From Longimicrobiales bacterium (GTDB lineage: Bacteria > Gemmatimonadota > Gemmatimonadetes > Longimicrobiales > Gaopeijiaceae): a stretch of 56,314 nucleotides of DNA. The stretch spans positions 1 through 56,314 of the forward strand of contig JANQDZ010000003.1 of NCBI GenBank assembly GCA_028278645.1. Reading direction: 5' to 3'. Both the position numbers and the translations under genes were made by a program. Within the stretch, counting starts at the first letter, position 1, and every line of letters starts with the position of its first letter. Below are positions 5,341 to 22,603 of this stretch, piece by piece. The notes beneath the pieces were generated by a model. The model was not told the origin of the DNA. It did not search any database and saw nothing but the letters and a program-made list of their open reading frames with translations.

Positions 5341-5346
5341 CCACCG

Positions 5347-5366: not shown

Positions 5367-5572
5367 GTCAACGGGTAACATTTCGCCAGCGATGCACCAG
5401 CCCAACACATGAGGTGAGGTTGGCACATTTTCCTTTCAAATCAGGGGTCCGCACCGTCGGCGGAGGTTTTTTTGACGACCATGAGAGCCGGCAAAACCAA
5501 TCGACCTCTGCCAAAAAGACGTAGACCGTGCCATTTCCATGCCATGGTGAGTGGAACGCAGTAGTAAATTCA

Positions 5573-6553: not shown

Positions 6554-6745
6554 ACGTGTTTGGGAAGTAGTTTGAAGGCACGAGCTGACGGTGAAAGGTA
6601 GCACGGATCGATCCGACGTTGCCAGGACGGCGGGGAACTGCCCGGATCGGCTTGGATTTGATCCTTCCCTTCAATCCGGTCCGGCTTTTAACATTCGAGT
6701 GAATTAGGGTTTCCTGATATTTCAGAATCCAAGAAACGTCCTCAC

Positions 6746-7660
6746 GTGAGACGATCTCTCAAAAGAGCTGGTGAAGCCGCTTTATTCAGGAGCGGCTTAA
6801 CCCGATTCCCTCAACGGCTCCTTGGGAAAACCACGGCCGTGCTCGGTTACCACAACATCGTGGCCAACGACGCCAAGGGTTCGGGGGACGCGAGCCTCCA
6901 CCTCTCCGTGGAGGAATTCAAGAGGCAGTTGGACTGGCTTCAAGACGAGTTCGAGATCGTTTCCCTCGGTCAGCTCGCAAGGCAACCCCGAGACGGGCAT
7001 CCCAGGGCCGCCATTACGTTCGACGACGCCTATCGGGGAGCACTGGAACTTGGGGTCCCTGAACTCCTCGAGAGGGGACTCCCCTCCACCATCTTTGTTT
7101 GCCCAGGGTTCCTGGACAAAGGTCCCTTCTGGTGGGACCTACTGGCCGACCCCTCCACCGGCCAGGTCCCCGGGCCCCTTCGGCAGCGTGCTCTTTTCGA
7201 GCTCGGGGGCCGCCACCATCTGATTATGCGCTGGGCGCAAGATCGGGGTCTGACCTTCCATCCCACCCCGGATTCCCATCTCCCGGCAACGGAAAAAGAG
7301 CTCCTTCAGGCCGCTGATTCCCCCTTGGTGACCCTCGGGTCCCATACCTGGAGCCACGTTCATCTCCCTGCGGTACCGGTCGCGGAAGCCCAGGAAGAAC
7401 TGAAGAGTGCCGGGGAGTGGATTGTAGAGAAGACAGGGGAATTCCCCTCCGCCGTTTCTTTCCCCTACGGAGGGACCTCAACCGACGCCGAACGATCCGT
7501 GGCGGAAGCCGGCCATGATTGGGCCTTCCTGATCGAGGGCGGCCCTTTCAACCCGAAGAAGGGACATGGCTTCCCCCATCGGTTGCCGCGCATCTGCGTT
7601 CCCAGGAACTTAACGCTGCAGGGTTTCATGCTCAGGGTTAGGGGTGCCTGGCCTTCATGA
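6746..7660 (+). CDS. polysaccharide deacetylase (NodB-type)
   Basis: The 304-residue protein has a NodB homology domain. AAITFDDAY at 89-96 gives the catalytic base/metal Asp93-Asp94, and SHTWSH at 199-204 gives the metal-binding His200 and His204. FPYGGTS later in the chain corresponds to the PxG motif 3. Family members remove N- or O-acetyl groups from polysaccharides, and deacetylases are regular members of exosortase-linked exopolysaccharide loci. No signal peptide is evident. Translation starts at GTG 6746, preceded by an AT-richer 140-base divergent spacer. Its stop overlaps the next gene by four bases, making it the first gene of a long plus-strand operon. Confidence 0.88.
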   Translation: MRRSLKRAGEAALFRSGLTRFPQRLLGKTTAVLGYHNIVANDAKGSGDASLHLSVEEFKRQLDWLQDEFEIVSLGQLARQPRDGHPRAAITFDDAYRGALELGVPELLERGLPSTIFVCPGFLDKGPFWWDLLADPSTGQVPGPLRQRALFELGGRHHLIMRWAQDRGLTFHPTPDSHLPATEKELLQAADSPLVTLGSHTWSHVHLPAVPVAEAQEELKSAGEWIVEKTGEFPSAVSFPYGGTSTDAERSVAEAGHDWAFLIEGGPFNPKKGHGFPHRLPRICVPRNLTLQGFMLRVRGAWPS

Positions 7661-8862
7661 ACCAACGTGTTCTAGTAACCGACGGCTCCGAACGTTCGGC
7701 TCTGGCCTGTGTAAGGGCTTTGGGGAGGAGAGGTTGCTCCTGCTATTCCCTGGGGCCTGACAAGGGCAATCTCGCCGGAGCGAGCAGGTATTGTCGGGAA
7801 TCCCTGCCTGCGCCCGACCCTCTCTCTCATCCTCGGGAGTTCCTCCAAGCGACGGAAGAGGCCATTCGAAGGTGGGACATCGACACTCTCTTCCCGATCA
7901 CGGAGAAAAGCCTTCGAGTTATCCTTCCCCATAGAGACAGAATGGGAGGGGTTTCGGTCCCCTTTCCCACCGCTGAGGTATTCTCAACGGTGTCGGACAA
8001 GGAGGCGGTTCTCGAGGCGGCTGAGGAGGTTGGGCTGAGGGTGCCCCGGCAGGTGGCTTGGGGATCCAGAGAGTCCGCATTGGAAGGGCTGGAGTCCCAT
8101 TCCTGGTTCCCGGTTGCCACCAAGGCCTCCCGGTCGGTGGCTCCAGGGACAGCCCTGAAAGCACCTCCGGTGGCCTATCTGAGCGACCGGGGTGGCCTCA
8201 GAAACTGGGTGGAAGGGGTCCACGACGACGTGTTCCCGGTCCTGCTCCAAGAACGGATCTCCGGCCCGGGGGTAGGTGTGTTTCTTCTCCTTTGGAACGG
8301 CCAGATTGTGGCGGCCTCCGGCCATACCCGCCTTCGCGAGAAACCTCCCTCGGGGGGCGTGAGCGTCCTCCGGGAAAGCGCCGTTCCCGACCCTACCCTC
8401 CTGGACCTTTCCACCCGTCTGCTAAAGAGGCTGGGCTGGGAGCGGGGAGTGGCTATGGTGGAGTTCAAAGAGGACGAATCCTCCGGGGAACCGGTCCTCA
8501 TGGAAATCAATGGGCGCTTTTGGGGATCGCTTCAGCTAGCCATCGACTGTGGCGTGGATTTCCCCGCCCTTCTTCTCCAATGTGAAGCGGGCGCTGTTCC
8601 GGAGAAGCCCCTTTTCGGGGAGGCCGGGGTCAGAACTCGGTGGCTGCTCGGGGATCTCGACCACCTGTTACTGAGGCTTTTCCGCTCCAAATCCGACCTC
8701 GACCTCCCTGATAACGCTGTCGGAAAGATTGGGGCAACCATGGCTTTCCTGAGTTCCTTCGGCCCAAGAACGAAGGCCGAGGTGTTCAAGTTCACCGATC
8801 CCCGTCCCTTCTTCATGGAAGCCGGGATGTGGGTCCGACAGCTGTTGGCCGGGGGCCGTTAG
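7657..8862 (+). CDS. ATP-grasp carboxylate-amine ligase-like protein
   Basis: This 401-residue enzyme begins with a Rossmann-like preATP-grasp domain (RVLVTDGSERSALACVRALG) and continues into an ATP-grasp fold. FPVATKASRS near 145 supplies the ATP-binding lysine. VFPVLLQERISGPGVGVF near 195 is the hinge/second ATP strand. VLMEINGRFWGS near 280 is the metal-binding ExN strand. It belongs to the carbamoyl-phosphate-synthase-like predicted ATP-grasp proteins that recur in exosortase and exopolysaccharide loci. ATGA overlap with the deacetylase couples them. The product may be an amidated sugar or lipid. Its layout is similar to the ATP-grasp protein at 37.5 kb, suggesting distant paralogy. Confidence 0.8.
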   Translation: MNQRVLVTDGSERSALACVRALGRRGCSCYSLGPDKGNLAGASRYCRESLPAPDPLSHPREFLQATEEAIRRWDIDTLFPITEKSLRVILPHRDRMGGVSVPFPTAEVFSTVSDKEAVLEAAEEVGLRVPRQVAWGSRESALEGLESHSWFPVATKASRSVAPGTALKAPPVAYLSDRGGLRNWVEGVHDDVFPVLLQERISGPGVGVFLLLWNGQIVAASGHTRLREKPPSGGVSVLRESAVPDPTLLDLSTRLLKRLGWERGVAMVEFKEDESSGEPVLMEINGRFWGSLQLAIDCGVDFPALLLQCEAGAVPEKPLFGEAGVRTRWLLGDLDHLLLRLFRSKSDLDLPDNAVGKIGATMAFLSSFGPRTKAEVFKFTDPRPFFMEAGMWVRQLLAGGR

Positions 8863-8867
8863 CCCTC

Positions 8868-9965
8868 ATGAAGGTCGTTCACCTGTTGGCGCCCGGTTCA
8901 TTCGGCGGGGTCGAGACGGTCGTGAGGACCCTGACCGTGGGGCTGGCTCGAGAAGGAACCGACGTATCGGTGATTCTCATCCTCGATGAGGGGTCCCCTC
9001 CGCCCCCTTTAGCCGAGGCCCTGGCCGAAGCGGGGGCCGCTACCCGGGAGATCTACATCGGTCACCGGAAGTACCGGGCGGAACGTGCCGCCGTCCGGGA
9101 AGCGCTCCGGGAGGACCGGCCCGATGTGGTGCACACCCATGGATATCGGGCCGACGTGGTGGATTCTCCAGTAGCCAGGGACATGGGCATTCCCACCGTA
9201 GTTACGGTCCATGGATTCACCGGAGAGGGCTGGAGGGGGCGGCTCTACGAGTGGATCCAGCGGAGAGCGCTGGCGCGCTTCGATGCGGTGGTGGCGGTGT
9301 CGAGGCCCATCGCGGACCGCTTGACGCGCTCCGGAGTCAAGACCGAGAGGACCGTTGTCATCCCGAATGCCTGGGAGGCTCCATCGGAATTTCTGGATCG
9401 AGGGGCTGCCCGGCGGGAGCTGGGATTACCGGATTCTGTTCCGGTCATTGGATGGGTAGGCCGGTTCACGCAGGAAAAAGAACCGGGCCTGGCTTTGAAA
9501 TGCCTGCAGGCGACCACAGTGCCGGAGCTGAGGCTCGCCATGTTTGGCGCTGGCCCCCTCCAGGCCGAAACCAGAACGCTGGCCGAGAAACTCGGGCTAA
9601 TCGACAGGGTAACCTGGCACGGCGTCGTTCCGGATGCACATCGACTCCTCAGAGCTTTTGATGCGCTTCTGCTCACCTCGTCCACCGAAGGGAGCCCCAT
9701 GGTGATTCTGGAAGCAATGGCAGGGTCGGTCCCGGTTGTCGCCACCGCCGTGGGGGGAGTACCCGACCTCATTTCCAAAAACGAGGGGTTTTTGGATTCG
9801 AGCGGGGACGTGGATGGCTTGGCGAAGAGTTTAGAGACGGTGTTGAACGACGGGACCCTGGCCCTCGAGAAGGCCGGAAGGGCCCGGAGCAGGCACCAAC
9901 GGGAATTCTCCGTCGGCCCGTGGGTCCAGGCTTATATCAGAACCTACCAGTCGGTGGTCTCATGA
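8868..9965 (+). CDS. GT4 family glycosyltransferase
   Basis: A complete GT-B enzyme of 365 residues. The N-terminus MKVVHLLAPGSFGGVETV carries the glycine loop. VVHTHGYRADV and AVVAVSRPIADRL are typical of the acceptor domain. VIGWVGRFTQEKEPGLAL opens the donor domain, and TSSTEGSPMVILEAMA is the Ex7E nucleotide-sugar motif. The frame is open upstream to 8829, inside the previous gene, but ATG at 8868, five bases after that gene's stop, matches the family N-terminus and is chosen. Acting in the cytoplasm, it probably extends the lipid-linked glycan. Its stop overlaps the next start by four bases. Confidence 0.88.
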   Translation: MKVVHLLAPGSFGGVETVVRTLTVGLAREGTDVSVILILDEGSPPPPLAEALAEAGAATREIYIGHRKYRAERAAVREALREDRPDVVHTHGYRADVVDSPVARDMGIPTVVTVHGFTGEGWRGRLYEWIQRRALARFDAVVAVSRPIADRLTRSGVKTERTVVIPNAWEAPSEFLDRGAARRELGLPDSVPVIGWVGRFTQEKEPGLALKCLQATTVPELRLAMFGAGPLQAETRTLAEKLGLIDRVTWHGVVPDAHRLLRAFDALLLTSSTEGSPMVILEAMAGSVPVVATAVGGVPDLISKNEGFLDSSGDVDGLAKSLETVLNDGTLALEKAGRARSRHQREFSVGPWVQAYIRTYQSVVS

Positions 9966-11143
9966 CCGTCCTGACGAGCATCGCCTGGGCTGGATTGGCG
10001 GTAAGTATTTCGGTCGCCCTTTACGCTTACGTCTTATACCCCGCGGCCCTCTGGGCCCTGGCCGTTTTCAGAAAACCCCGGCCGCTCTTGGAAGGTGATC
10101 TCGATCACTGGCCGACCGTGAGCATCTCGGTCCCGGTCTTCAACGAGGAAAAAAAGATCGAGGGGTTGATCAAGAGCTTGCTGGCCCTGGACTATCCGAA
10201 GGACCGCCTCCAGATCTTGATCGTTTCCGACGCTTCCACGGATCGGACCGAGGGAATCGTGGAGAGCTACGAGGATCAGGGTGTCGAGCTCCTGAAGCTG
10301 ACCGAACGGTGCGGAAAGACCTACGCGGAGGGCGCGGCGGCTCCCCATCTCCGTGGCGATATTGTGGTCAACACCGACGCAACGATCCGAATCGCCCCCG
10401 GGGCACTCAAGCCCCTCATCTCCGCGCTGGCAGACCCCTCAGTGGGCCTCGCCTCGGGCAGGGATGTGAGCGTAGGTGCCGCCGACGAGGAGGGGAATAT
10501 CGGAGAGAAGGGCTACGTCGGGTATGAGATGGCCATCAGGGGCCTGGAAACAAGGGTGTTCGGGATCGTCGGCGCGTCCGGGTGTCTCTACGCGATTCGG
10601 ACCTCCCTCCATTCTCAGGAGTTGCCGGCCTCGCTGAGCCGGGACTTTGCCGCGGCGCTGAACACCCGGGAAAACGGTTTCCGAGCGGTCTCCGTGCCGG
10701 ACGCGGTTTGCTCCGTCCCCAGGGCTGGTTCGTTGAAGAGAGAGTACCGGCGAAAGGTCCGAACCATCACGAGGGGGATGGGAACTCTCGCACACAAGCG
10801 TGCACTCCTGAATCCCTTCCGGTACGGCCTTTTTTCCTGGATGCTCTTCAGTCACAAGGTCTGCAGGTGGGCTCTACCCTGGTTCGCGGTCCTGGGGGCT
10901 CTGTCGCTTTTCCTGCTTGCATTCCAGCACTCCTGGGCCCTGGGCCCCTCGGCGGGCTTGCTCCTGCTCCTGGCGCTGGCGGCTTTGGGGTGGGTAACGG
11001 ACGGAGGAAAAAGATCGAGGAAGGTGTTCTCTCTACCGGGTTTCATCTTGCTGGGGAACCTTGCGGCCATGCACGCATTCCTGCGGCACCTGAAGGGAGT
11101 GCAACAAGCCGTCTGGGAACCGACTCGAAGAACGACGCCATGA
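9962..11143 (+). CDS. membrane-anchored GT2 family glycosyltransferase
   Basis: The 393-residue protein has an N-terminal transmembrane helix (about residues 8-32), a GT-A domain and two to three C-terminal helices. The GT-A landmarks are VSISVPVFNEEKKIEGL, ILIVSDASTDRTEGIV and IVVNTDATIRIAPGAL (DxD region). This architecture is that of processive-type or membrane-bound polyprenyl glycosyltransferases. GTG/ATG candidates exist upstream, but ATG 9962 forms the same ATGA overlap used throughout the operon and gives the natural hydrophobic start. The cytoplasmic catalytic domain would use a nucleotide sugar, and the product may be passed to the exosortase-linked export machinery. Confidence 0.85.
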   Translation: MTVLTSIAWAGLAVSISVALYAYVLYPAALWALAVFRKPRPLLEGDLDHWPTVSISVPVFNEEKKIEGLIKSLLALDYPKDRLQILIVSDASTDRTEGIVESYEDQGVELLKLTERCGKTYAEGAAAPHLRGDIVVNTDATIRIAPGALKPLISALADPSVGLASGRDVSVGAADEEGNIGEKGYVGYEMAIRGLETRVFGIVGASGCLYAIRTSLHSQELPASLSRDFAAALNTRENGFRAVSVPDAVCSVPRAGSLKREYRRKVRTITRGMGTLAHKRALLNPFRYGLFSWMLFSHKVCRWALPWFAVLGALSLFLLAFQHSWALGPSAGLLLLLALAALGWVTDGGKRSRKVFSLPGFILLGNLAAMHAFLRHLKGVQQAVWEPTRRTTP

Positions 11144-12606
11144 ACTTTCCCATACCGGACAAGAGGGACCGGTTTCTCTGGATTTGCGTGGCCGTCGCAT
11201 CGTTCCTGGCTCTGATTGGCCTTTGGACCACGATCCGAGGCTTCCACAGGACATGGATCGGCGGCACCTATTCCCACGGGTATTTTGTCGCGGTGTTCTG
11301 CGGGTGGATGGTCTGGAAGAGGCGAGACCGGATCTTCTCGGGCGGGGAGAAACTGGCCGTCGCGTGGCTCCCGCTCCTGGGGGTTTCCTTTTTGTGGCTC
11401 CTCGCCGCCATCATGAACATCCAAGCCGCCCAGCAAGGGCTCCTGGTCCTGATCGGGCTCGGATGGGTGGCCGCCGGACTAGGGGGCGCGCCCCTACGGG
11501 TCCTGGTCCCGATAGCCGCCATGTTCCTCCTGGCGTTGCCGGTCTGGGATCCACTGGTTCCGTTCCTACAGTGGCTCACAGTCGTGGTCTCGACCGTCGC
11601 GGTCACGATCCTTCAAATCCCCGCAACGGTCGACGGCGAGTTCATCACCCTACCCGACGGGGTGATCCAGGTGGCCGCGACCTGCGCCGGCCTGAACTCG
11701 TTCCTGGTAGGCCTCACTCTGGGTGCAGCCTTCTGTCACCTCTTTCTGAGAAGGTGGTCCACCGTGCTGGCCGCCATGGGGTGCGCGGCCGGAATCAGCA
11801 TGGTGGCGAACTGGATACGAGTGGCAAGCCTTACCGTCATCGGCCACGTTTCCCGGATGCAGTCGGGGCTCCTCGACGACCACATCACGTACGGGTGGAT
11901 AATCTTCACGGTCGGCCTGGTTCCGATGTTCTTCCTGTTCCTCCGGATACGAAGGTGGGACTCCGGATCCCGAGGGAAGATGAAAGGCCCGTCGGGCACC
12001 GGGCGACCCGACCTCGCCCGTTTACTGATGGCGACCGCCGCTGCCCTGGTCGGCCCAATGGTTTTCATGGGGTTCGGAGCGATCCCGGCCAAAGAAACGG
12101 CCGAAACCGATCCCTTCCCAGCCGCCGGGATTTCCTGGGCTCGAACGGAGCTGCCCCTCGAAAGGCCCTTTTCTTGGAGACCGACCTTCGCCGGTGAGGA
12201 CTACATTCTCGCGTCCACCTACTCGGCCGATGGCAAGGTCGTCTTCCTGAACAGATTCGTGTATCTGGACCAGGAACAGGGCGCAGAGCTCATCGGATCA
12301 ACGAATCGGATTTCCGATCCGTCGACCGTCCTGCGGGAACGGGTTTTTATACCCCCCGATCCCGCTGGAAGATGGGTACGCGAGGCCATCGTTCAGACCG
12401 AGGGAGGGGCACTGCTGGTCTGGTACTGGTATCGGGTAGGGACGAAGGAAACGGCTTTTTCTTACCGTGCGAAGCTCCATGAGATCGAGGCCTTTTTCCG
12501 AAGAAGACCGGACGCGGAGCTCATCGTCCTCACCTCCACCTGCTCCGAGACGGACTGCGACGCCGCGTTCAGGGCCTTCCTCTCCCTCTTCAGGGGAGGT
12601 CCATGA
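11140..12606 (+). CDS. xrtA: exosortase fused to an EpsI domain
   Basis: The 488-residue protein combines a polytopic exosortase (about residues 1-275, around eight helices) with a C-terminal EpsI-like domain (about 330-485). The transpeptidase triad of the family is present: Cys182 in TCAGLN, Arg227 in NWIRVASL and His248 in DHITYGWIIF. TYSHGYFV near residue 43 is the conserved SHG loop. Exosortases cleave PEP-CTERM C-termini at the membrane and are thought to transfer the protein to a cell-surface acceptor. The common CSGLR context is CAGLN here. ATG 11140 overlaps the preceding stop by four bases; the longer upstream open frame is ignored because it only reads out of frame through the GT2 gene. 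The XrtA subtype is inferred from the fusion and neighbours. Confidence 0.88.
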   Translation: MNFPIPDKRDRFLWICVAVASFLALIGLWTTIRGFHRTWIGGTYSHGYFVAVFCGWMVWKRRDRIFSGGEKLAVAWLPLLGVSFLWLLAAIMNIQAAQQGLLVLIGLGWVAAGLGGAPLRVLVPIAAMFLLALPVWDPLVPFLQWLTVVVSTVAVTILQIPATVDGEFITLPDGVIQVAATCAGLNSFLVGLTLGAAFCHLFLRRWSTVLAAMGCAAGISMVANWIRVASLTVIGHVSRMQSGLLDDHITYGWIIFTVGLVPMFFLFLRIRRWDSGSRGKMKGPSGTGRPDLARLLMATAAALVGPMVFMGFGAIPAKETAETDPFPAAGISWARTELPLERPFSWRPTFAGEDYILASTYSADGKVVFLNRFVYLDQEQGAELIGSTNRISDPSTVLRERVFIPPDPAGRWVREAIVQTEGGALLVWYWYRVGTKETAFSYRAKLHEIEAFFRRRPDAELIVLTSTCSETDCDAAFRAFLSLFRGGP

Positions 12607-13799
12607 GGACCCGGACGGGGCTCCTCTTCTCAGGGATCGGCGCCATAGCGGTATTGGGCTTGACGCTCTGGCCGTGGACGAAGCCCGTGGCGCCGGGGGC
12701 TCAGGAGTGGTGTTTCCTGTGCGGGGAAAAGGCCATCGCCGACGCGATCCTGAACCTGTTTCTCTTCGGGCCATTCGGGTTTGGCATCGGGCTGCTTCGG
12801 GGAACGGCCTCGGCCCTGGTCGGATCGTTCTCACTTTCGGCGTTGGTGGAGATTACCCAAACGGGGCTTTCAGGCAGGTACCCCTCTCTGAGTGATCTGG
12901 TGATTAATACTCTCGGAGGGGGGCTGGGGGGGATCCTGGCGGTTCGCTGGCGAGCGCTATCCCGGGGCTTGGCCGAACAATCATGGCCGGTCAAAACCTT
13001 CCTGGTGCTCTCCACAGCGATCCCATTGTTTTCGCCCGCTGTACTTTCGGTGCCGGATTATCCGAACACGGCCTACTGGGGCCAATGGACCCACGAGCTC
13101 GGGAACCTCATCGCGTACGAGGGGAGTGTGTTGGGAGCCGCGGTTGGCGGGATGGAAATCCCCGACGGACGGATCCCTGACCAGGGCGGAGTGCGGTCCG
13201 CTTTCCGGGACGGCGAGGTGGTGGAGATCCTCATCCGCCTGGGTCAGGAACCCAACCAGCCGGCCCATTTGTTCGCCGTTTTTGACCGGCGCCAACAAGA
13301 AATCATACTGATCACGGTTGATGGCCCCGACTTGGACGTACATCGGGGCACCGTCGCCACCCGGCTACGCCTCGATCAACCATCGCTGATATGGGAAGGT
13401 GCCCTCGGTGGTGTGGAAAGAGACACCGTCCGGATCGCGATTTCCCAAGAAGGTTCTTCTCAGTGCCTGAGGCTGGGAGAGGAATCACGTTGTGATCTCG
13501 GAGTTGGTCTTGAGGGCGGGTGGCGCTTACTTCATCGCCTCGGTGACCCCCCTCCGCTGCTGGGTGCTCTGATCAGCGGGATCTGGCTTTTTTTCCTGGG
13601 GTTACCGGCAGGATTGATGACGTCAACTCGGAGAACGGGCCTCTTCCTTGGGCTTGCCCTGGGAGGAGCGGCGTCCCTGGTTTCCTGGAGAAGCCCGTGG
13701 CTGACCGCCCACGGATGGATAGTCTTACCTCTGATGGTTGGGACCGCGGCCGGCTATCACCTTCGGAAGACCTTGGGAGCGCACGGATCTAAGGCCTGA
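12603..13799 (+). CDS. VanZ-like membrane protein with LamG/concanavalin-like domain
   Basis: The first ~115 residues are a VanZ-type membrane domain: an N-terminal helix, then NLFLFGPFGFGIGLL and ALVEITQTGLSGRYPSLSDLVINTLGG, the signature of VanZ-like proteins. A middle section of about 160 residues (roughly 150-310) has the beta-rich look of a LamG/concanavalin A-like jelly-roll, with FDRRQQEIILITVDGPDLDV. The chain ends with two or three more helices. VanZ-LamG proteins commonly accompany exosortase loci, but their biochemical role is unknown; carbohydrate recognition on the outer face of the membrane is plausible. ATG overlap with the exosortase gene stop implies coupled translation. Confidence 0.75.
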   Translation: MRTRTGLLFSGIGAIAVLGLTLWPWTKPVAPGAQEWCFLCGEKAIADAILNLFLFGPFGFGIGLLRGTASALVGSFSLSALVEITQTGLSGRYPSLSDLVINTLGGGLGGILAVRWRALSRGLAEQSWPVKTFLVLSTAIPLFSPAVLSVPDYPNTAYWGQWTHELGNLIAYEGSVLGAAVGGMEIPDGRIPDQGGVRSAFRDGEVVEILIRLGQEPNQPAHLFAVFDRRQQEIILITVDGPDLDVHRGTVATRLRLDQPSLIWEGALGGVERDTVRIAISQEGSSQCLRLGEESRCDLGVGLEGGWRLLHRLGDPPPLLGALISGIWLFFLGLPAGLMTSTRRTGLFLGLALGGAASLVSWRSPWLTAHGWIVLPLMVGTAAGYHLRKTLGAHGSKA

Positions 13800-13807
13800 G
13801 GAGCACC

Positions 13808-15367
13808 ATGCGTCTGGCGCCTGAGAAACCACCCGAAACCCGCCCACCAACCGGGGGCGACTCCGCCCGTCCTGAACGTTTCTCCGCGTATTCCAACCGC
13901 CTTTCCTGGACCGGTGTGATTGTTGGGATCGTGTTGAGAACCGTCCAATACCTATCCAACCGCTCACTCTGGCTGGACGAGGCTTATCTGGCCCAGAACC
14001 TCCTTGCGAGAAACGCGGCCCAGCTTCTCCAACAGTTGGATGATTCCCAGGTAGCCCCCATCGGCTTCTTGTGGCCCGTGAAAGGGTGCATCAGCCTCCT
14101 CGGCGGAACCGAGTATGCGCTCAGGCTCGTCCCCTTCCTCGCAGCTATTGCCTCCCTGCTCCTCTTCCATAGGCTGGCCCGGCGAATCCTGTCACGGGAA
14201 GCGGTCCCGATCGCAGTGGGCATATTTGCCATCTCTGAGCCGCTCCTTTTCTACGCTGCCGAGCTCAAGCAATACTCAACCGACGTTTTCTGGGCCGTCG
14301 CCCTCATATCCCTCATGGTGTCTTGGTGGGAGCGGCCGAGGAGGGGGCGGGTAGGGCTGTTGCTGTTGGCAACCGGTGCTCTAGCGATCTTCTCCTCCCA
14401 TCCCGCCATATTCGTCCTGGCTGGGTTCGCCGTGTATTGCCTGGCGGTCGGGTTCAGGCGGAAGGACGGGTACCTTATCCGATCTGCCCTCCTGGTTGGC
14501 TCGGTCTGGGCTACCCTCTTCTTAGCCCAGTTCGTCCTCCTTCTCCGTGTCGACCATTCCAGCGGATTTTTTCAGGAATTCTGGTCCGGACGTTTGATGC
14601 CCTTTCCCCCGACCTCCGTGGACGACGTCGAATGGTTCCTGAGGACATTCCTCGAGGTCTTTGTCGATCCGGTTGGGCTCTCGCACGGAGCCCTTTCGGG
14701 GTTGGTGTTCTTAGCCGGTTGCATCGCATTCGGGGCACGAAAGCACCAGTTGGCCCTTCTGCTGGCGCCTATCCCCGTGGCCCTTCTGGCTTCCGGCCTG
14801 GAAAGCTACCCTTTTGCCACCAGGTTTCTCCTGTTCCTGGCCCCAACCTTTATCCTGGTCCTCGCGGAAGGGACACTCCTCTTTGCGGGGCTCCTCGGCG
14901 CCCGCTCTCGCATTTTGGCCGTCGTCTTCGGGCTCCTCATGTTCCTGCAACCGACCGTGAACATCGTGGCCCGTATCCCCTTAGAAAGAGAGGAGATTCG
15001 GCCCGTCATCGAGCACCTCGCAGAAAACCTGAATCCCGATGATAGGATTTACGCGTATTGGGGAGCCGGGCCCGCGCTCACCTACTATGCCGATCGGTTC
15101 GGAATCGAAATGGATGAGGTGACTGTGGGGAGGTACGAGGTCCGCCCACAGCGGGGGGAATTCTCGAAAGACCTCGCCCAATACAGAAAAGGCGATCGCG
15201 TCTGGGTTGTCTTTTCCCATTTTGGCCCCGAGGGACCGGGGGATCATAGGTTCGTGTTACTCAACCTTGTCCGTGACCGTGGGGAAGAGCTGAGCCGATT
15301 CGAGGCCACTGGGGCTTCGGCTCACTACTTCGAGTTTTCTAGCGATCCGGCCGGGCAAGGGAGGTAA
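13808..15367 (+). CDS. GT39/ArnT-like polyprenyl-phosphate-sugar-dependent membrane glycosyltransferase
   Basis: The 519-residue protein has about ten membrane helices after a polar ~38-residue N-terminus. NRSLWLDEAYLAQNLL in the first periplasmic loop carries the Asp-Glu pair typical of GT-C enzymes of the GT39/GT83 (dolichyl-/undecaprenyl-phosphate sugar) clan. A soluble C-terminal tail of about 120 residues begins near residue 395 (DDRIYAYWGAGPALTYY) and resembles that of other GT39-like proteins. It should glycosylate a protein or glycan on the periplasmic side. It starts eight bases after the VanZ-LamG gene and ends the tight operon; a 139-base gap follows. Confidence 0.78.
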   Translation: MRLAPEKPPETRPPTGGDSARPERFSAYSNRLSWTGVIVGIVLRTVQYLSNRSLWLDEAYLAQNLLARNAAQLLQQLDDSQVAPIGFLWPVKGCISLLGGTEYALRLVPFLAAIASLLLFHRLARRILSREAVPIAVGIFAISEPLLFYAAELKQYSTDVFWAVALISLMVSWWERPRRGRVGLLLLATGALAIFSSHPAIFVLAGFAVYCLAVGFRRKDGYLIRSALLVGSVWATLFLAQFVLLLRVDHSSGFFQEFWSGRLMPFPPTSVDDVEWFLRTFLEVFVDPVGLSHGALSGLVFLAGCIAFGARKHQLALLLAPIPVALLASGLESYPFATRFLLFLAPTFILVLAEGTLLFAGLLGARSRILAVVFGLLMFLQPTVNIVARIPLEREEIRPVIEHLAENLNPDDRIYAYWGAGPALTYYADRFGIEMDEVTVGRYEVRPQRGEFSKDLAQYRKGDRVWVVFSHFGPEGPGDHRFVLLNLVRDRGEELSRFEATGASAHYFEFSSDPAGQGR

Positions 15368-15506: not shown

Positions 15507-16826
15507 GTGAAGAAAAGAATAGACCGCGCCAAGGTATCTTTCTTCTTTTCAAGCGCACTGCTCCTATTCGGCTACGGCGTGGCCGTAGGCGTGTACGAGA
15601 TATTTCCCTATGGCATCCTCGATTTTGGGTTCAATTCGGTTCAGGAGGCCTGGAACGATCGCTTCCACGTCACTCGTCTCCGTCCCGATAAACACCTGGA
15701 GGTAGCCCGTCATCCCGGCAGTGGGGTCACCCAAGCCTCCGAAGAAGAAATGGCCCAGGGGTACACCCTCATCTCGGCATTCGTCGAAGACCGGAACCAG
15801 TTGACCCTGATCAGGCCAAACGGGGAGGAGGTGGCCCGGTGGCCGGTTAGGTACACCCGCCTGTTCCCCGATGGCAGGCACCTCGAGGACCACGGGTACG
15901 CAAATCCAAGAGACTGGGGCACCGACATCCACGGGGCTCTCATACTTCCCGACGGGTCGGTCGTGTTCAACTTCGAGTACCGGGGAATGGTGAAACTGGA
16001 CCGCTGCGGGGAGGTCCAGTGGACTCTTCCGGAGATGACCCATCACTCCATCGACCTCGCGTCCGACGGGAGCTTCTGGGTAGGTGGACGGCGCAGAGTG
16101 AGGGAACCGAATCCATACCCTCCCATCGTTACGCCATACCTCGACGACGCGGTCATGAGGGTATCCCCGGAGGGAGAACTCTTGTCGGAGTTCTCGGTGG
16201 TAGGTCTGTTCTTTAAAAACGATCTTCAGTCCCTGCTTCTGGCCACCGGCCGGCAGCGAGTTTCGGACAGGGATCATAGGGAAGCCGTCCACCTCAACGA
16301 CATCGAAGAGTTGAGCCCGGAGTTCGCAGAGGCCTTTCCCATGTTCGAAGAAGGCGATCTGCTCCTCTCCCTCCGCCAACTGAACCTAATCATGGTGGTG
16401 GATCCCGAGACCGAGGTCATCAAGTGGCATCGGACCGGACCCTACATTCGTCAACATGACCCCGACTACCGTGCCGACGGCACCATATCGGTGTTCGACA
16501 ACAACGTGGATGATCAGAATGGCGCGGTGTTCGGCGGAAGCAGGATCGTGTTGGTCGATCCGGCAGAAGAAACGGCGGGTTTCCTTTATGGGACCGAGGA
16601 AGGCAAGAAGATGTACACGCGGGTGCGTGGCAAACACCAAAACCTCTGGAACGGTAACATGCTGATCGTAGAGAGCCTGGCGGGCCGAATCTTCGAGGTC
16701 GACCCGGACGGTGACCTCGTCTGGGAGTTCATCAACCGATACGACGAGGATGAAGTGGCCCGGATCAACGATGCGCTACGTTATCCGGAGGAGTATTTCA
16801 CTGTAACCAACTGGGACTGCGGGTAG
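15507..16826 (+). CDS. arylsulfotransferase (ASST)-like beta-propeller protein
   Basis: The 439-residue protein has one N-terminal membrane anchor (about residues 9-33) and then a long domain of repeated beta-propeller-like blades such as HGALILPDGSVVF and THHSIDLASDGSFWVGG. These resemble the arylsulfotransferase family (ASST/ASST_2), with His142, His179 and His180 as candidate active-site histidines. True ASST moves sulfate between phenolic donors and acceptors in the periplasm. Whether this homologue has that activity is open. It starts at GTG 15507 with AAGGA about 12 bases upstream. Two small membrane proteins and a sulfotransferase follow closely, suggesting a common function. Confidence 0.7.
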   Translation: MKKRIDRAKVSFFFSSALLLFGYGVAVGVYEIFPYGILDFGFNSVQEAWNDRFHVTRLRPDKHLEVARHPGSGVTQASEEEMAQGYTLISAFVEDRNQLTLIRPNGEEVARWPVRYTRLFPDGRHLEDHGYANPRDWGTDIHGALILPDGSVVFNFEYRGMVKLDRCGEVQWTLPEMTHHSIDLASDGSFWVGGRRRVREPNPYPPIVTPYLDDAVMRVSPEGELLSEFSVVGLFFKNDLQSLLLATGRQRVSDRDHREAVHLNDIEELSPEFAEAFPMFEEGDLLLSLRQLNLIMVVDPETEVIKWHRTGPYIRQHDPDYRADGTISVFDNNVDDQNGAVFGGSRIVLVDPAEETAGFLYGTEEGKKMYTRVRGKHQNLWNGNMLIVESLAGRIFEVDPDGDLVWEFINRYDEDEVARINDALRYPEEYFTVTNWDCG

Positions 16827-16853
16827 TCAACTCCGGCCAGGAGGAAGGCCTGA

Positions 16854-17090
16854 ATGAAAAAGATGAACCTTTTGGCGTTTATTCCGTTGCTCCTTCTTTT
16901 CTTTGGGGCTCCTGAACCCCTCTCAGCCTATATCGGGCCGGGAACCGGTCTGGCTATACTGGGGGCAGCGATCGCTTTCATCCTCAGTCTTTTCCTAGGC
17001 GTCCTGGGGTTTGTGTGGTACCCGTTCAAGAAAGCCTACCGGGCTATCTTCGGGGGGGATGAAGACACGTCTGATCAAACCTCCGCGTGA
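16854..17090 (+). CDS. small membrane protein, 78 residues
   Basis: A short protein with a signal-like first helix (about 5-25), the polar hinge AYIGPGTGLA, a second helix (about 30-55) and an acidic tail (GGDEDTSDQ). A strong ribosome-binding site, AGGAGGAAGG, precedes the ATG by a few bases, so it is very likely expressed. I do not recognise a named family with confidence. The helix-GPGTG-helix layout suggests a small membrane partner rather than an enzyme. It lies between the ASST-like gene and another small membrane gene, with which it overlaps by four bases (GTGA). It is not a PEP-CTERM protein: there is no PEP motif near the C-terminus. Confidence 0.75.
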   Translation: MKKMNLLAFIPLLLLFFGAPEPLSAYIGPGTGLAILGAAIAFILSLFLGVLGFVWYPFKKAYRAIFGGDEDTSDQTSA

Positions 17091-17461
17091 TCTACGTCGC
17101 CGGGATCGTCGCCGCTTTGGTGTTCGCGGTGGCCTTGGATCGGTCAGGCCTCGCTGAGATCGGCGCTGACGCCCTCAAAACCAGCCGCCGCTCCGCTGCC
17201 CTGCTCAGGGATTCCACCCTTTCGGACGATGAAAAGGAGAAGGCAATGCGGGCCGCCTCCTCTTCCCTTTTTCGATCCTTCTATTCCATCGGAATAAGGA
17301 GCGTGGGTGCCCTGGGGTTCTCCCTGGTGGCACTCCTTCTTTTTCATCTCACAGGCCTTGCTCCCGTCGGCTCAGTCACGAGCTGGTTGGCCCAGTGGGA
17401 CGCAATCATTCTGGTGTCGGTCATCGTGGTGGCCTGGTTCGTGGTTCGGCGGTGGTTGTGA
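17087..17461 (+). CDS. small membrane protein, 124 residues
   Basis: The protein has an N-terminal helix (about 2-18), a polar and probably cytoplasmic or periplasmic middle (about 25-65, RRSAALLRDSTLSDDEKEKA) and two C-terminal helices (about 72-92 and 103-122). The GTG start at 17087 overlaps the previous stop, and the last codons overlap the sulfotransferase start, so three genes are translationally chained. I do not recognise the family. The SDDEKEKAMRAAS segment reads as an amphipathic helix that could bind a partner. The context suggests an accessory subunit for the adjacent sulfur-transfer proteins. Confidence 0.75.
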   Translation: MIYVAGIVAALVFAVALDRSGLAEIGADALKTSRRSAALLRDSTLSDDEKEKAMRAASSSLFRSFYSIGIRSVGALGFSLVALLLFHLTGLAPVGSVTSWLAQWDAIILVSVIVVAWFVVRRWL

Positions 17462-18537
17462 TCGAGGAATCGGACTACTCCGGCATCGATCGCCTCACGC
17501 ACCGGATCGCCTTTTCCAACCGAGCCATCCAGCTCACCGCCGCCGACATCGAGAGCGTTCTCTTTAGAAGCCGCTTCCACCACCTCCCGGTGGAAAAGCC
17601 CATCTTCATCTGTTCCCTTCCCCGGGCAGGAACCACCCTCCTCCTGGAGTTGCTGACAAAGAGCCCGGAGCTAGCGAGCCACACCTATCGGGACATGCCC
17701 TTCGTCATGGCGCCGGTTCTCTGGGCATCGTTTTCGGGCAGGTTCCGGGTCCGCTCCGATCCCAAGGAGCGTGCTCACGGCGACGGGATGCAGATCGACT
17801 TCGACAGCCCTGAAGCTTTCGAGGAAGTGCTGTGGCGGGCCTTTTGGCCGAAGAAGTTCAAGGGATCCACCATCCAGCCATGGAGTGAGGGGGAGTCGGT
17901 GCGGGGTTTTAAGGAGTTCTTCAAGACCCACATAAAAAAAGTCATTCATGTGAGGTCTCATGGGGAGACAAACCCAACCCGATATGTGTCCAAGAACAAC
18001 GCCAATATCGCGCGGGTCGGGTTCCTGAAGCGCCTCTTCCCCAACTGTCACGTGGTTGTGCCGGTGCGAAGACCCGTCGACCAGGCACTATCCCTCCACA
18101 GGCAACACCTGAGGTTCCTGGAAAGGCATAACCTTGATGCCTTTTCGCTGACATACATGCGCGACCTGGGTCATTTGGAGTTCGGGAAGCTACATCAACC
18201 CATCGGGTTCCCCGGCATGGATGGTATCATGGATCGGTTCTCCCCCGATGGGCTGGACTACTGGGTCGGATACTGGCGAATCGCTTTTCAGGATCTCCTG
18301 GATCGAGCCGGTGAGGTGACCTTCGTCTCATACGAGGATCTGTGCCGCGGAGGTCCCGCCGGCCTCGGGGTTTTGGCCGAGGCCCTCGGGCTGGATCCGG
18401 TGCCGCTGGCGGAGGAGGCGGGAGACCGGCTGCGGGCACCAAAGGAATACGATGTGGAGGCGGAGGCCCTGGACTCTGAGAACCTGAACGAGGCCCTGGA
18501 GATGTATGACCGCCTGGCGGCCCTGAGCGTGGTTTGA
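17458..18537 (+). CDS. PAPS-dependent sulfotransferase family protein
   Basis: The 359-residue protein carries the 5'-phosphosulfate-binding loop at about 50-62 (FICSLPRAGTTLLLELL) and the 3'-phosphate-binding region NCHVVVPVRRPVDQALSLHRQH near 195-215. These are the two hallmarks of sulfotransferases that use PAPS in the cytoplasm. GTG at 17458 forms a GTGA overlap with the small membrane gene and is chosen over an ATG at 17395, which would add 21 residues translated from inside that gene. The substrate may be a glycan lipid intermediate of the locus. It ends 20 bases before a convergent second sulfotransferase gene. Confidence 0.82.
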   Translation: MIEESDYSGIDRLTHRIAFSNRAIQLTAADIESVLFRSRFHHLPVEKPIFICSLPRAGTTLLLELLTKSPELASHTYRDMPFVMAPVLWASFSGRFRVRSDPKERAHGDGMQIDFDSPEAFEEVLWRAFWPKKFKGSTIQPWSEGESVRGFKEFFKTHIKKVIHVRSHGETNPTRYVSKNNANIARVGFLKRLFPNCHVVVPVRRPVDQALSLHRQHLRFLERHNLDAFSLTYMRDLGHLEFGKLHQPIGFPGMDGIMDRFSPDGLDYWVGYWRIAFQDLLDRAGEVTFVSYEDLCRGGPAGLGVLAEALGLDPVPLAEEAGDRLRAPKEYDVEAEALDSENLNEALEMYDRLAALSVV

Positions 18538-18557: not shown

Positions 18558-19382
18558 CTACCCCTTCCCCACCCCCCTCAAGGATTCCCAGAGGTCTTCG
18601 CACGCCCGTTGGATGCTTTCATCCAGCTCCGGCGGTGGGTGCTTCCCCTTGGACTTTTTTGAAACGCCTTTGGCCATGGATTTCCGGAAGCTGATTCCGA
18701 GGAAGGAACAAATGCCTCGGAACGCGCCTTCCGGGTCCCCCGTAAGGACATCGTAGTCGGTGACCCTCACCCTTTCGGATTCGGAGAGCCCCAGCTCGAA
18801 GAAGAGGGAGTTTCGCACCCACCACTGAAGCGCCGCACACTCGTGAACGGTCAGATCGGGGCGGTAGTGTTCCAAGAACGAGTCTCTCAAATAGGAAGTC
18901 GCATTCAGAGCAAAGGAGTCGTTCGGGCCAGATTGGCTCCACTCCGAAGCCCAATCCTTCACCTGGTCTCCGAAGAACCGAATGATGGAGTTGACGGTGT
19001 CGGCGGGGTTTCGGATGGCGAAAAGGATCTTGGTCCGGCCGTCAAACTCCAGCATTTCCCGAGCTCGATGGGTTTCCACGATGGGCTTGAAGAGAACCCA
19101 ACGGGCCCGGCTCTTTTCCACCAACCCGCGGAGGGCGCCAAAATCCCTCAAGCGCCAATTCTCGAAAGCCGCAGGGTGGGTTTCGTTGTAGACGTCCAAT
19201 TCCGGGCTTCGGGAGAGGTTCTCGACCACCAGGTCCGTTCCGGAGCGGCCCGACCCGATCAGGAACAGGGGCGACGGGTTTTTGACAGGCCGGAAGAGCC
19301 GCCAGATTCTCCGCTCCAAACCGCGGGACTTCCGTTCCAGCCACCGTCGCCCGGGATGTGATTCGAACGGGACATAGGTCAT
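18558..19382 (-). CDS. sulfotransferase family protein (second, convergent)
   Basis: A 274-residue protein with the phosphosulfate-binding loop PLFLIGSGRSGTDLVVENL at about 38-56 and the 3'-phosphate-binding segment KILFAIRNPADTVNSIIRFF near 128-147. A conserved basic N-terminus (about 1-33) precedes the loop. Similarity to the neighbouring sulfotransferase is limited to the cofactor motifs, so they probably act on different acceptors rather than being a recent duplication. It is transcribed alone, toward the other sulfotransferase gene. An 870-base stretch without a convincing gene lies upstream of it. Confidence 0.82.
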   Translation of the reverse strand: MTYVPFESHPGRRWLERKSRGLERRIWRLFRPVKNPSPLFLIGSGRSGTDLVVENLSRSPELDVYNETHPAAFENWRLRDFGALRGLVEKSRARWVLFKPIVETHRAREMLEFDGRTKILFAIRNPADTVNSIIRFFGDQVKDWASEWSQSGPNDSFALNATSYLRDSFLEHYRPDLTVHECAALQWWVRNSLFFELGLSESERVRVTDYDVLTGDPEGAFRGICSFLGISFRKSMAKGVSKKSKGKHPPPELDESIQRACEDLWESLRGVGKG

Positions 19383-20253: not shown

Positions 20254-21678
20254 GTGCTCTTCAACTCGTTCGCTTTCGCAGCGTTCCTCCCTGTCGCCTT
20301 TTCCCTCTACTGGCTCCTCCAAGGCCGCGTTCGAGCTCAGAACGGCTTCCTCCTCGTAGCGAGTTACGTGTTCTATGGTTGGTGGGACTGGCGTTTCCTG
20401 ATTCTCATCGCCTTCAGTTCGCTGGTCGACTATTCCGTGGGCCGGGGTTTGGCCACCGTCACCGGAGTCTGGGGCCGACGCCTTCTTCTTTCCACCAGTT
20501 TGACGGCTAACCTCGGTCTCCTGGGGTTCTTCAAATACTTCAACTTCTTCGCGGAGTCCTTTGCCGACCTCCTCTCATCCATCGGCATCCAGGCCTCATG
20601 GGTCACCCTGGAGATCATTCTCCCGGTAGGGATCTCCTTTTACACGTTCCAAACCCTTAGCTACACGCTGGATGTCTACCATGGGAAGATCGAGGCCACG
20701 AAGCATCCCGTGGCCTTCTTCGCCTATGTGAGCTTCTTCCCCCAGTTGGTTGCCGGGCCAATCGAACGAGCAAGAAACCTGCTTCCTCAGTTTCTCGAGC
20801 CCCGTGCGTTCTCACAGGAGCTAGCGGTAGACGGGCTTCGCCAGGTCCTTTGGGGGTTATTCAAGAAGATGGTCGTGGCCGACACCTGCGGCGTGGTGGT
20901 GGATGACATTTTCATCAACTACGGGGAGTATTCCTCCGTTAGTCTCTTTCTTGGCGGGTTCTTCTTCGCCGTGCAGATCTACGGAGATTTCTCAGGCTAT
21001 TCGGACGTAGCGATCGGCACGGCACGGCTCTTCGGGTTCCGCATAATGCGGAACTTCGCATTCCCCTATTTTTCGCGGGACATCGCAGAGTTCTGGCGGC
21101 GTTGGCACATCTCCCTCTCGAGCTGGTTCCGAGACTACCTCTATATCCCCCTTGGAGGGAGCCGGGCCGGAAAATGGCGGTCCCTGAGGAACATCGTTGT
21201 CATCTTCGTGGTTAGCGGATTCTGGCACGGCGCGAACTGGACGTTCATCGCGTGGGGAGCCCTGAATGCTGCCTATTTCATCCCCCTATTTTTATGGGGC
21301 GGCCACCGATCTCATCTCGACATCGTAGCTCGGGGACGGTGGTTCCCGACCGTCCGGGAAACTGCCCAGATGGCTGTCACCTTCTGTGTTACCGTCCTGG
21401 CCTGGATCTTTTTCAGAGCACAGTCGGTGCCAGAGGCGGTGGATTACATAAGGGCGATGCTCACCTCGAGCCCCATCACCCCACTCCGAGTCGCCACCGA
21501 CGCCATGGTTTTCTCCATCCTGATGCTCGCTTGGGAGTGGATCCAACGGGAGAAAGAACATGGCCTCGAACTCTCCCGGTTTCCCCGTTGGGCTCGGTGG
21601 GTTTTATATGCCGGCATCATTCTAATCATCATCGAATTCAGCAGCGGCCAACGTGAGTTCATCTATTTCCAGTTCTGA
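20254..21678 (+). CDS. MBOAT family O-acyltransferase (AlgI-like)
   Basis: This 474-residue polytopic protein is a membrane-bound O-acyltransferase. It begins MLFNSFAFAAFLPVAF from GTG 20254, the usual AlgI-type N-terminus. It contains VSFFPQLVAGPIERA, FWRRWHISLSSWFRDYLYIP and the region SGFWHGANW, whose His near residue 325 is the conserved MBOAT active-site residue. AlgI/PatA-type proteins pass acyl groups, usually acetyl, across the membrane to an SGNH-type partner that esterifies polysaccharide. The next gene encodes such a partner and overlaps or abuts it. A second MBOAT gene lies at 31.4 kb. Confidence 0.9.
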   Translation: MLFNSFAFAAFLPVAFSLYWLLQGRVRAQNGFLLVASYVFYGWWDWRFLILIAFSSLVDYSVGRGLATVTGVWGRRLLLSTSLTANLGLLGFFKYFNFFAESFADLLSSIGIQASWVTLEIILPVGISFYTFQTLSYTLDVYHGKIEATKHPVAFFAYVSFFPQLVAGPIERARNLLPQFLEPRAFSQELAVDGLRQVLWGLFKKMVVADTCGVVVDDIFINYGEYSSVSLFLGGFFFAVQIYGDFSGYSDVAIGTARLFGFRIMRNFAFPYFSRDIAEFWRRWHISLSSWFRDYLYIPLGGSRAGKWRSLRNIVVIFVVSGFWHGANWTFIAWGALNAAYFIPLFLWGGHRSHLDIVARGRWFPTVRETAQMAVTFCVTVLAWIFFRAQSVPEAVDYIRAMLTSSPITPLRVATDAMVFSILMLAWEWIQREKEHGLELSRFPRWARWVLYAGIILIIIEFSSGQREFIYFQF

Positions 21679-21682
21679 CGAG

Positions 21683-22603
21683 ATGCTGGCCTTCTTGGCT
21701 CGGGCCGCGAGGGTTTCCTTATTCCTCTTGGTCCTGGGAGGAACGTGCCGAGTTTCGAATCACTGGATGAGCCGCCTCAGCCAGCCTACGCTTGCAGATG
21801 GGGTGCGGATTCTGATCATCGGCGATTCCCATATTCAGACGACCCTCGATCCATCTCTCATCCCTGGCAGCCAGAGCGTGGCCATGAGTGCCGAACCTTT
21901 CATGGCCAGCTATTTCAAGATGATCCGGATCCTAAAAGCCAACCCGGGTGTCTCTTCCATGGTCCTGGGTTTCGGCCCTCACAACGTTGCTTTTTTCAAC
22001 GACGAGAAGTTTTCCTCCCCACAGTTCGCCGCTGAGATGTTCAGCAGGTATAACTCGCTGGTTCCATGGTGGACGTTGGGAGAGGTGCCCGTCTCAGTCA
22101 GCGAGGGGATCGTGGGGGAGGCGAGGTTGCGCTGGACCCCGAACCGGCTGCTGTTACGAAACTTCTTCCACTCCTTTGCTGGTCGCCCAACTCGGGCACC
22201 GCCGTACTTGGGTGCCTATCGGCCGCAACCTGAAGCTGAGCTCACCGAGGAGGATTTTTCTGGGGTGCTCCAGCGTCAGTTCACTCACCCCCCGTCAGAG
22301 TCGGCCTGTTCCGATGTCCAAGGCCGGTACCTGAGGAAGATGGTCGACGAGGCTTTGAACCGCGGAATCAGAGTCCTGTTGGTGGCAACACCCACCCATC
22401 GGCGGTACCGGCAATCGATCCCACCCGAGTTGACCGCCTACTATGCCGGACTCTGGGACGAACTTGTCCAAAAGCCCGGAGTGAAGGGGCTGGACCTTTC
22501 AGCCATGGATCTGCCGGATTCTGCATTCCGGAATTATGACCACGTCGCGGAACCTTTCGCGAAGCCAATCTCGGAGGAGGTCGCGAGACATATCCAGTGG
22601 TAG
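21683..22603 (+). CDS. SGNH-type acyltransferase/hydrolase-like protein with N-terminal anchor
   Basis: The 306-residue protein has an N-terminal signal-anchor (about residues 5-22) and then an SGNH-like fold. ILIIGDSHIQTTLDP holds block-I Ser49, and YDHVAEPFAKPISEEV near the C-terminus supplies an Asp-His pair for block V. Such proteins (AlgJ/AlgX-like, PatB-like) receive an acyl group from the MBOAT protein and place it on polysaccharide. ATG 21683 lies four bases after the MBOAT stop. GTG at 21653 would also be in frame with a 26-base overlap and ten more residues. The catalytic assignment is by motif only. Confidence 0.72.
   Translation: MLAFLARAARVSLFLLVLGGTCRVSNHWMSRLSQPTLADGVRILIIGDSHIQTTLDPSLIPGSQSVAMSAEPFMASYFKMIRILKANPGVSSMVLGFGPHNVAFFNDEKFSSPQFAAEMFSRYNSLVPWWTLGEVPVSVSEGIVGEARLRWTPNRLLLRNFFHSFAGRPTRAPPYLGAYRPQPEAELTEEDFSGVLQRQFTHPPSESACSDVQGRYLRKMVDEALNRGIRVLLVATPTHRRYRQSIPPELTAYYAGLWDELVQKPGVKGLDLSAMDLPDSAFRNYDHVAEPFAKPISEEVARHIQW

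Follow-up and report, generated by a model that had tools for sequence, protein, structure and literature searches.

Stepwise sulfuryl transfer by two enzymes is known from caprazamycin biosynthesis in Streptomyces, where, in the parts of the published accounts on which we draw, Cpz8 sulfates a triketide pyrone and Cpz4 takes that sulfated phenol as its donor (PMC4257720), favoring a sugar hydroxyl as acceptor (PMC13426309). The second of these sources, a 2026 review, states in the sections cited here that for most arylsulfotransferases no natural acceptor has been identified and the physiological role is little understood, and names His252, His356, Asn358, Arg374, His436 and Thr501 as the active-site residues of the arylsulfate sulfotransferase (ASST) AssT of Escherichia coli (PMC13426309). 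Here we analyze a 56,314-nucleotide stretch of DNA from a Longimicrobiales bacterium of the phylum Gemmatimonadota (contig JANQDZ010000003.1; the whole stretch is hereafter the window), in which four consecutive genes at 15507-18537 encode an ASST-like beta-propeller, a 78-residue and a 124-residue membrane protein, and a sulfotransferase of the type that uses 3'-phosphoadenosine-5'-phosphosulfate (PAPS). We report that these genes form a conserved module and, on balance, we think it probable that the module works as a membrane-bound two-step sulfation relay, the activity, carrier, acceptor and direction of which we infer.

Results

Recurrence of the four genes in genomes and plasmids

The four genes recur together in unrelated genomes, and their standing as a conserved, linked module is well supported. 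When named genomes were scanned with an alignment of the ASST-like proteins of the window and of a second genome, G168, 14 loci were found, mainly in Alphaproteobacteria, with Marinibactrum halimedae (Gammaproteobacteria) and Cerasicoccus frondis (Verrucomicrobiota) in addition. The ASST alone had led to these 14 genomes, and every one of them carries the sulfotransferase and the 124-residue protein as well. Six of the 14 had given rows to the profiles and the other eight are independent; in every one of these eight, the ASST that led to the genome stands apart from the sulfotransferase/124-residue pair, and the 78-residue gene is with the pair. The match to the 124-residue profile is weak in seven of the eight (9e-4 to 3e-7), and was accepted because the gene sits between the 78-residue gene and the sulfotransferase.

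Using the 124-residue profile as the entry point, matches were obtained in 5 of 337 Alphaproteobacteria and 3 of 229 Gammaproteobacteria, one seed being within each count, and the six new genomes found in this way all carry an ASST, with the four families in one locus. The order and strand seen in the window are kept without a large gap in five of these six loci, and L098 has its ASST at a distance of about 1 kb. In the same sample of 337 Alphaproteobacteria, 23 genomes matched the ASST profile (E <= 1e-5) and 14 the sulfotransferase profile (E <= 1e-10), 12 of them matching both; once the seed is excluded, 11 of the 13 sulfotransferase genomes fall among the 22 ASST genomes (p = 4e-13). In G579, one of the two exceptions, an ASST that the wide search had missed does in fact adjoin the sulfotransferase, within a glycan locus. 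The first pass of these wide searches scored part of the candidates, and the absences that they returned are soft; for the 18 genomes positive for the ASST and negative for the 124-residue protein, the DNA of 13 was read (all except G505, G530, G589, G599 and G620), and G553 and G522 each have one ASST locus outside the DNA read.

A tblastn search with the sulfotransferase against 72,556 plasmids returned seven records, each of which carries an ASST, the 78-residue protein, the sulfotransferase and a middle gene, the latter being of the 124-residue type in six and of a longer type in Paroceanicella; in Rhodobacteraceae SC52 the 78-residue gene is about 18 kb away. Within the phylum of the window the module is rare: the ASST query matches two of 39 near relatives, own genome included, and the 124-residue profile matches two of 298 genomes, namely the window's own and G168, where all four families occur in a divergent arrangement and the contig end cuts the sulfotransferase. 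In G283 an ASST is present, and the 124-residue protein and the sulfotransferase were not matched.

Gene order was compared over 23 genomic loci with the 124-residue gene (the window, L031, L035, L038, L041, L042, L044, L045, L078-L085, L098-L103 and L138; L045 and L088 are one locus, counted once). Ten of them have the ASST, 78-residue, 124-residue and sulfotransferase genes in this order on one strand with no large gap, the others being permuted, divergent or convergent, and in five of the 23 no ASST is found beside the trio of the remaining genes. The quartet is kept, in the same order, in G527, an alphaproteobacterium with a 1.2-Mb genome and 28 % guanine plus cytosine (GC) in the 10 kb read. 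Chance adjacency of the four genes is ruled out by this recurrence in genomes and plasmids.

In locus L078 two ASST paralogues sit between the 78-residue gene and the 124-residue/sulfotransferase pair, and in G101 (L087, 6773-13307) four tandem ASST genes are followed by a 78-residue-type gene, with the sulfotransferase about 75 kb away and no match to the 124-residue profile in that genome. G527 (L138), G418 (L140) and G579 (L141) are 1.2-1.4 Mb in size, have 24-28 % GC where read and hold the module whole or in part; the ASST of G579 has additional membrane helices.

The 124-residue protein and its tie to the sulfotransferase

A physical tie between the 124-residue protein and the sulfotransferase is supported by gene fusions, as the two form a single open frame in 9 of the 29 loci bearing the 124-residue protein, that is, in seven of the 23 genomic loci (L041, L042, L044, L079, L084, L099 and L102) and two of the six plasmid loci (L142 and L144). 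Hydropathy and charge give the protein three membrane helices, a coil rich in lysine and arginine between the first and second (with residues D47, K50 and E51) and a basic C-terminus; from this charge pattern, the coil and the C-terminus are predicted to lie inside, on the PAPS side. Two subgroups of the family, ISDHWKER and DDEKE, are related according to profile comparison (96.9 %). The order of parts suggested by hydropathy and by the structure model may correspond to that of the Oxa1/Get1/EMC3 (YidC-like) superfamily, the layout of which we take to be three membrane helices, the first and second joined by a cytoplasmic coil, but the protein has no Pfam match, and no known fold was found for it in a search with a fused model that effectively tested only the sulfotransferase part.

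In six loci (L124-L127, L130, and L146 from Paroceanicella) a protein of about 240 residues replaces the 124-residue one, with the same helix order; the stretch that joins helices two and three has some 100-125 residues and, by the same charge reasoning, is predicted to be outside. Homology between the long and the 124-residue proteins was not established by profile comparison (11 %, 0.3 % and 1.8 %), and we regard the long gene as the position-equivalent of the 124-residue gene and nothing more. In L128 (G553) the sulfotransferase comes straight after the 78-residue gene, and two ASST genes lie elsewhere in the genome.

The ASST-like propeller

The 439-residue protein matches PF14269 (E 9e-43; 147 bits, with a cut-off of 27) and PF05935 (38.8 against 24.2), and is predicted to consist of an N-terminal membrane helix (about residues 7-30) and a beta-propeller. 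Its structure model, with a predicted local distance difference test score (pLDDT) of 86.5, is that of an ASST beta-propeller: the closest solved fold is that of Cpz4 (9kf6; Z 28.8, root-mean-square deviation (rmsd) 3.2, 312 residues aligned), followed by E. coli AssT (3ets; Z 25.8, rmsd 3.7, 329 aligned) and by a propeller of unknown function (Z 23.6). The nearness of the model to Cpz4 fits a relay, but a common fold does not prove a common function.

Counterparts could be assigned to five of the six AssT residues listed above. Profile alignment puts H317 on the catalytic His436 and H179 on His252 of AssT (3ELQ), while H262, N264 and R290 correspond to His356, Asn358 and Arg374 by the motifs HxN and LLSxR, in a region that the profile alignment did not reach. 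Among 48 rows of the family, taken from loci whose DNA was read, H317 is conserved in 47, H179 and N332 in 45 each, and H180, H262, N264 and R290 in 43 each. Three family members encoded without the module, those of L135, L136 and L137, lack several of the active-site residues. Retention of these residues in the propeller suggests that it may act as an ASST.

The 78-residue protein and the sulfotransferase

The 78-residue "GPG" protein is made up of a signal-like hydrophobic N-terminus, the sequence A-Y-I-G-P-G (A-Y-x-G-P-G family-wide), one membrane helix, a W-Y-P-x-K motif and a basic tail. A25, Y26, G28, G30 and P57 are identical in all 37 relatives, and P29 in 36 of them; topology based on hydropathy and charge predicts Tyr26 to be at the outer face, adjoining the putative signal cleavage site. 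Neither this protein nor the 124-residue one has a match above a Pfam or NCBIfam cut-off, and only scattered single weak matches were seen. The relative from Cerasicoccus frondis (L085, 8186-8356) begins MEHLAYIGPG, with no signal-like stretch ahead, and the one from G579 (L141) has AYLGLG.

The sulfotransferase scores 62.1 bits with PF13469 (cut-off 27) and carries LPRAGTT at residue 54 and VPVRRPVDQALSL at residue 201, which we take to be the PAPS-binding loop and the 3'-phosphate stretch, respectively, along with an invariant ERAH at 104-107; R56, G58 and T60 are invariant in the 8 alignment rows. Its best profile matches among solved sequences are tyrosylprotein sulfotransferases (TPSTs; 5wrj, E 8e-12). 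The fold search with the fused-protein model put Mycobacterium avium Stf9 at the top (Z 19.1), with M. tuberculosis Stf1 at Z 18.1 and TPSTs at Z 16-17, and Cpz8 was distant, at rank 35 (Z 10.2).

Gene layout and neighboring genes

The coordinates of the module and of its upstream context are given in Table 1. Between the ASST stop and the ATG of the 78-residue gene there are 27 bases, and 139 bases separate the module from the PMT_2-type gene, itself preceded by the VanZ and exosortase genes. The longest open reading frame (ORF) for the sulfotransferase would begin at 17395 and encode 380 residues; the GTG at 17458 was preferred because it overlaps the preceding stop and matches the start of relatives. 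Between 15200 and 18700, no sigma-70 promoter-like site and two terminator-like sites were predicted, which is not above the yield of shuffled sequence.

Table 1. Position of the module genes, their overlaps and the upstream genes in the window.
Feature	Position	Strand	Basis and remarks
ASST-like ORF	15507..16826	+	GTG start, 439 residues; Pfam PF14269
78-residue "GPG" membrane protein	16854..17090	+	ATG start; own family alignment, topology
124-residue membrane protein ("m124")	17087..17461	+	GTG start; alignment, hydropathy, charge, fusions in relatives
PAPS-type sulfotransferase (Sulfotransfer_3)	17458..18537	+	GTG start, 359 residues; Pfam PF13469
GTGA overlap, 78-residue stop / 124-residue start	17087..17090	+	
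GTGA overlap, 124-residue stop / sulfotransferase start	17458..17461	+	
Exosortase/EpsI	10582..12606	+	Pfam, NCBIfam; upstream context, outside the conserved module
VanZ-like	12603..13799	+	Pfam, NCBIfam; upstream context, outside the conserved module
PMT_2-like	13808..15367	+	Pfam, NCBIfam; upstream context, outside the conserved module

Glycan genes lie beside the module in the window, on the Tateyamaria and Sagittula plasmids, on pSC52_6 and in G579. Farther out, the glycan context of the window includes glycosyltransferases, a polysaccharide deacetylase and an O-antigen-ligase-like protein. On pSC52_6 (L143) a gene for a sulfate adenylyltransferase/adenylylsulfate kinase accompanies the module and the glycan genes; with two ASSTs, three genes annotated as sulfotransferases, this PAPS-synthesis gene, an O-antigen ligase and glycosyltransferases, it looks like a sulfated-polysaccharide plasmid.

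An earlier note on this DNA had set the module directly behind an exosortase glycan operon. In the window, it does follow exosortase, VanZ and PMT_2 genes; no exosortase, however, recurs next to the module when 45 loci are compared, and as the neighbors of the module vary between lineages we rejected exosortase as a general functional partner. A type III polyketide synthase, or another carrier-making gene, as a constant fifth gene was likewise rejected, none being recurrent among the same 45 loci.

The exosortase/EpsI protein of the window scores too low for the named exosortase subtypes that were listed (XrtA, 172 bits against a cut-off of 208; XrtW, 136 against 425), and the region upstream of its gene, at 552-9965, holds O-antigen-ligase-like, glucuronyl-esterase-like, glycosyltransferase, polysaccharide deacetylase and ATP-grasp genes. 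Downstream, a second, distinct sulfotransferase of 274 residues (18558-19382, minus strand; PF13469 42 bits, PF00685 38 bits) faces the last gene of the module, ending 20 bases away, and matches the profile of the module sulfotransferase only with E 0.0013. At 20254-22603 (plus strand) an MBOAT gene is followed by an overlapping gene for a 316-residue protein without a Pfam family, and the two look like a surface-polymer O-acetylation pair.

Discussion

The four genes that the earlier note had read at 15507-18537, the last three chained by GTGA overlaps, are borne out by the ORFs and the sequence, and its description of the two small membrane proteins as unrecognized agrees with their passing no Pfam or NCBIfam cut-off. 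The same note had looked to co-occurrence in other genomes, which is what we see in 14 of 14 genomes found by the ASST, 6 of 6 found by the 124-residue protein and 7 of 7 plasmids, and to retention of the ASST active-site histidines by the propeller, where H179, H262 and H317 are the counterparts of His252, His356 and His436.

In the relay that we propose, the 124-residue protein would hold the sulfotransferase at the inner membrane face, where the enzyme would move the sulfuryl group of PAPS to a phenolic or otherwise aromatic carrier able to stay in the membrane; the sulfated carrier would then be presented at the outer face, with the 124-residue and 78-residue proteins as the membrane part of the complex; and the membrane-anchored propeller would load the sulfuryl group on H317, from which an external acceptor, most probably a surface glycan, would receive it. 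Such a transfer would need no PAPS in the periplasm. The close pairing of an inner PAPS enzyme with an outer aryl-sulfate enzyme is most simply accounted for if the first makes the donor of the second and, given the membrane attachment of the donor side and the lack of a recurrent carrier gene, we infer a common, membrane-soluble aromatic carrier. A precedent for a lipid-soluble sulfated quinone in bacteria is offered by the sulfated menaquinone S881 of M. tuberculosis, as described in the part of the source cited here (PMC3141025). The acceptor is probably a surface glycan, judging from the neighboring genes. More tentatively, and short of calling it probable, we consider that the four proteins might constitute an undescribed, mobile, general-purpose trans-membrane sulfuryl relay, leading from PAPS through a membrane-held aryl sulfate to surface polymers, in which the aryl sulfate would probably be a quinol-like or phenolic lipid, or else the invariant tyrosine of the 78-residue subunit.

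Several observations weigh against the relay. G418, the other sulfotransferase genome outside the ASST set, shows no ASST in the 12 kb read. This sulfotransferase is missing, moreover, from 11 of the 22 ASST genomes that the Alphaproteobacteria sample contains once the seed is left out, G444 among them in spite of its strong ASST match (4e-98), so that the family extends beyond the module. No middle gene is seen in L128. The residue at the position of Thr501 is not Thr, and R, M, G and others are found there across the family, in a region where the alignment is weak. The neighbors of the module are mainly non-glycan in Paracoccus saliphilus, Paroceanicella, Novosphingobium and Rhodobacter CZR27, and therefore the acceptor is not, as a rule, encoded with the module. 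Finally, no neighbor beyond the module, and no carrier-making gene, recurs in the 45 loci compared.

Some of these observations would sit comfortably with two independent sulfations of one surface polymer, one acting inside on a lipid-linked precursor and the other outside, where the ASST would use environmental aryl sulfates, the two enzymes having a common product and no common carrier. The glycan genes beside several copies of the module, the separation of the ASST from the sulfotransferase/124-residue pair in 8 of 14 genomes, and the lack of a recurrent carrier-making gene all speak for such an arrangement; we nevertheless consider it unlikely, as it leaves unexplained the ASST found in 11 of 13 sulfotransferase genomes and the persistence of the quartet where no glycan genes are near, and as an ASST reliant on aryl sulfate from the environment would have no dependable donor. 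The flow could also run in reverse, with the outer ASST stripping environmental aryl sulfates and a membrane carrier delivering the group to the inner sulfotransferase, which would regenerate PAPS from 3'-phosphoadenosine-5'-phosphate (PAP) and so scavenge sulfate. Enzymes of Haliangium ochraceum and M. avium do regenerate PAPS from PAP, according to the section of the review cited here (PMC13426309), and M. avium Stf9, which may be the enzyme concerned, heads the fold matches of the sulfotransferase (Z 19.1). The pairing of the module with a sulfate adenylyltransferase/adenylylsulfate kinase and with glycan genes on pSC52_6, however, fits the use of PAPS better, and we regard reverse flow as quite improbable.

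We give slightly less credit still to the idea that the 78-residue protein is itself the sulfuryl acceptor or carrier, its invariant tyrosine being sulfated by a TPST-like sulfotransferase, by the ASST, or by both. All 37 relatives have Tyr26, which is predicted to be at the outer face, and the solved relatives nearest to the sulfotransferase include TPSTs; on the other hand, spending one small protein per sulfate would be costly, and the flanking G-P-G is about equally conserved, so that a structural role would explain Tyr26 just as well. It is very improbable, in our opinion, that the set is not a sulfate system at all and handles a different group, with the propeller recruited to another reaction. 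The changed Thr501 position would agree with that, and so would the breadth of PF14269, most members of which are untested, but five of the six listed ASST residues are kept here, when the module-less proteins of L135, L136 and L137 can lack several.

How bacterial polymers are sulfated outside the cytoplasm, where PAPS should be absent, and what ASSTs do in nature are open questions, and the module provides a genetic handle on both in marine bacteria that can be cultured, for example Tateyamaria omphalii, Roseivivax sediminis and Marinibactrum halimedae. Two protein families absent from Pfam and NCBIfam are brought to notice by it as well. If the general-purpose version of the relay were true, it would amount to a Golgi-like sulfation of finished glycans without export of PAPS, retained even in a 1.2-Mb genome.

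When the module is set against known systems, the propeller, with the catalytic His and four of the five other active-site residues, is shared with the periplasmic AssT (3ELQ, 3ETS) of uropathogenic E. coli CFT073. The partners of AssT are DsbL/DsbI. The module ASST is shorter than AssT (439 against 571 residues), has a predicted N-terminal membrane helix and is paired with a PAPS-type sulfotransferase. That sulfotransferase is of the same fold class as the mycobacterial Stf enzymes (Stf9, Z 19.1; Stf1, Z 18.1), one of which, Stf3, reportedly makes S881, and for which we know of no ASST partner and no fused membrane protein. TPST1 and TPST2, eukaryotic Golgi enzymes that act on protein tyrosines, are its best profile matches among solved sequences, and in the fold comparison their identity to it is low (17-19 %).

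The closest parallel in design is caprazamycin, for which a relay from a PAPS-dependent sulfotransferase to an ASST is already published in the accounts cited in part here (PMC4257720, PMC13426309), so that the view of the earlier note, which knew of no described system with this combination, is not supported. As in the Streptomyces pathway, a PAPS-type sulfotransferase is encoded with an ASST, and the nearest solved fold to the propeller is Cpz4 itself. Unlike that pathway, there is no recurrent type III polyketide synthase beside the module, and Cpz8 is a distant match of the module sulfotransferase; the two small membrane proteins, the membrane anchoring and the fusions also set the module apart from caprazamycin as published in those parts. 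In our literature search no paper was recognized as describing the membrane quartet. Because no type III polyketide synthase recurs, the module resembles the caprazamycin relay in its logic and is not a member of it: two-enzyme logic is known, and it is the membrane quartet, with its two unnamed families, that appears to be undescribed.

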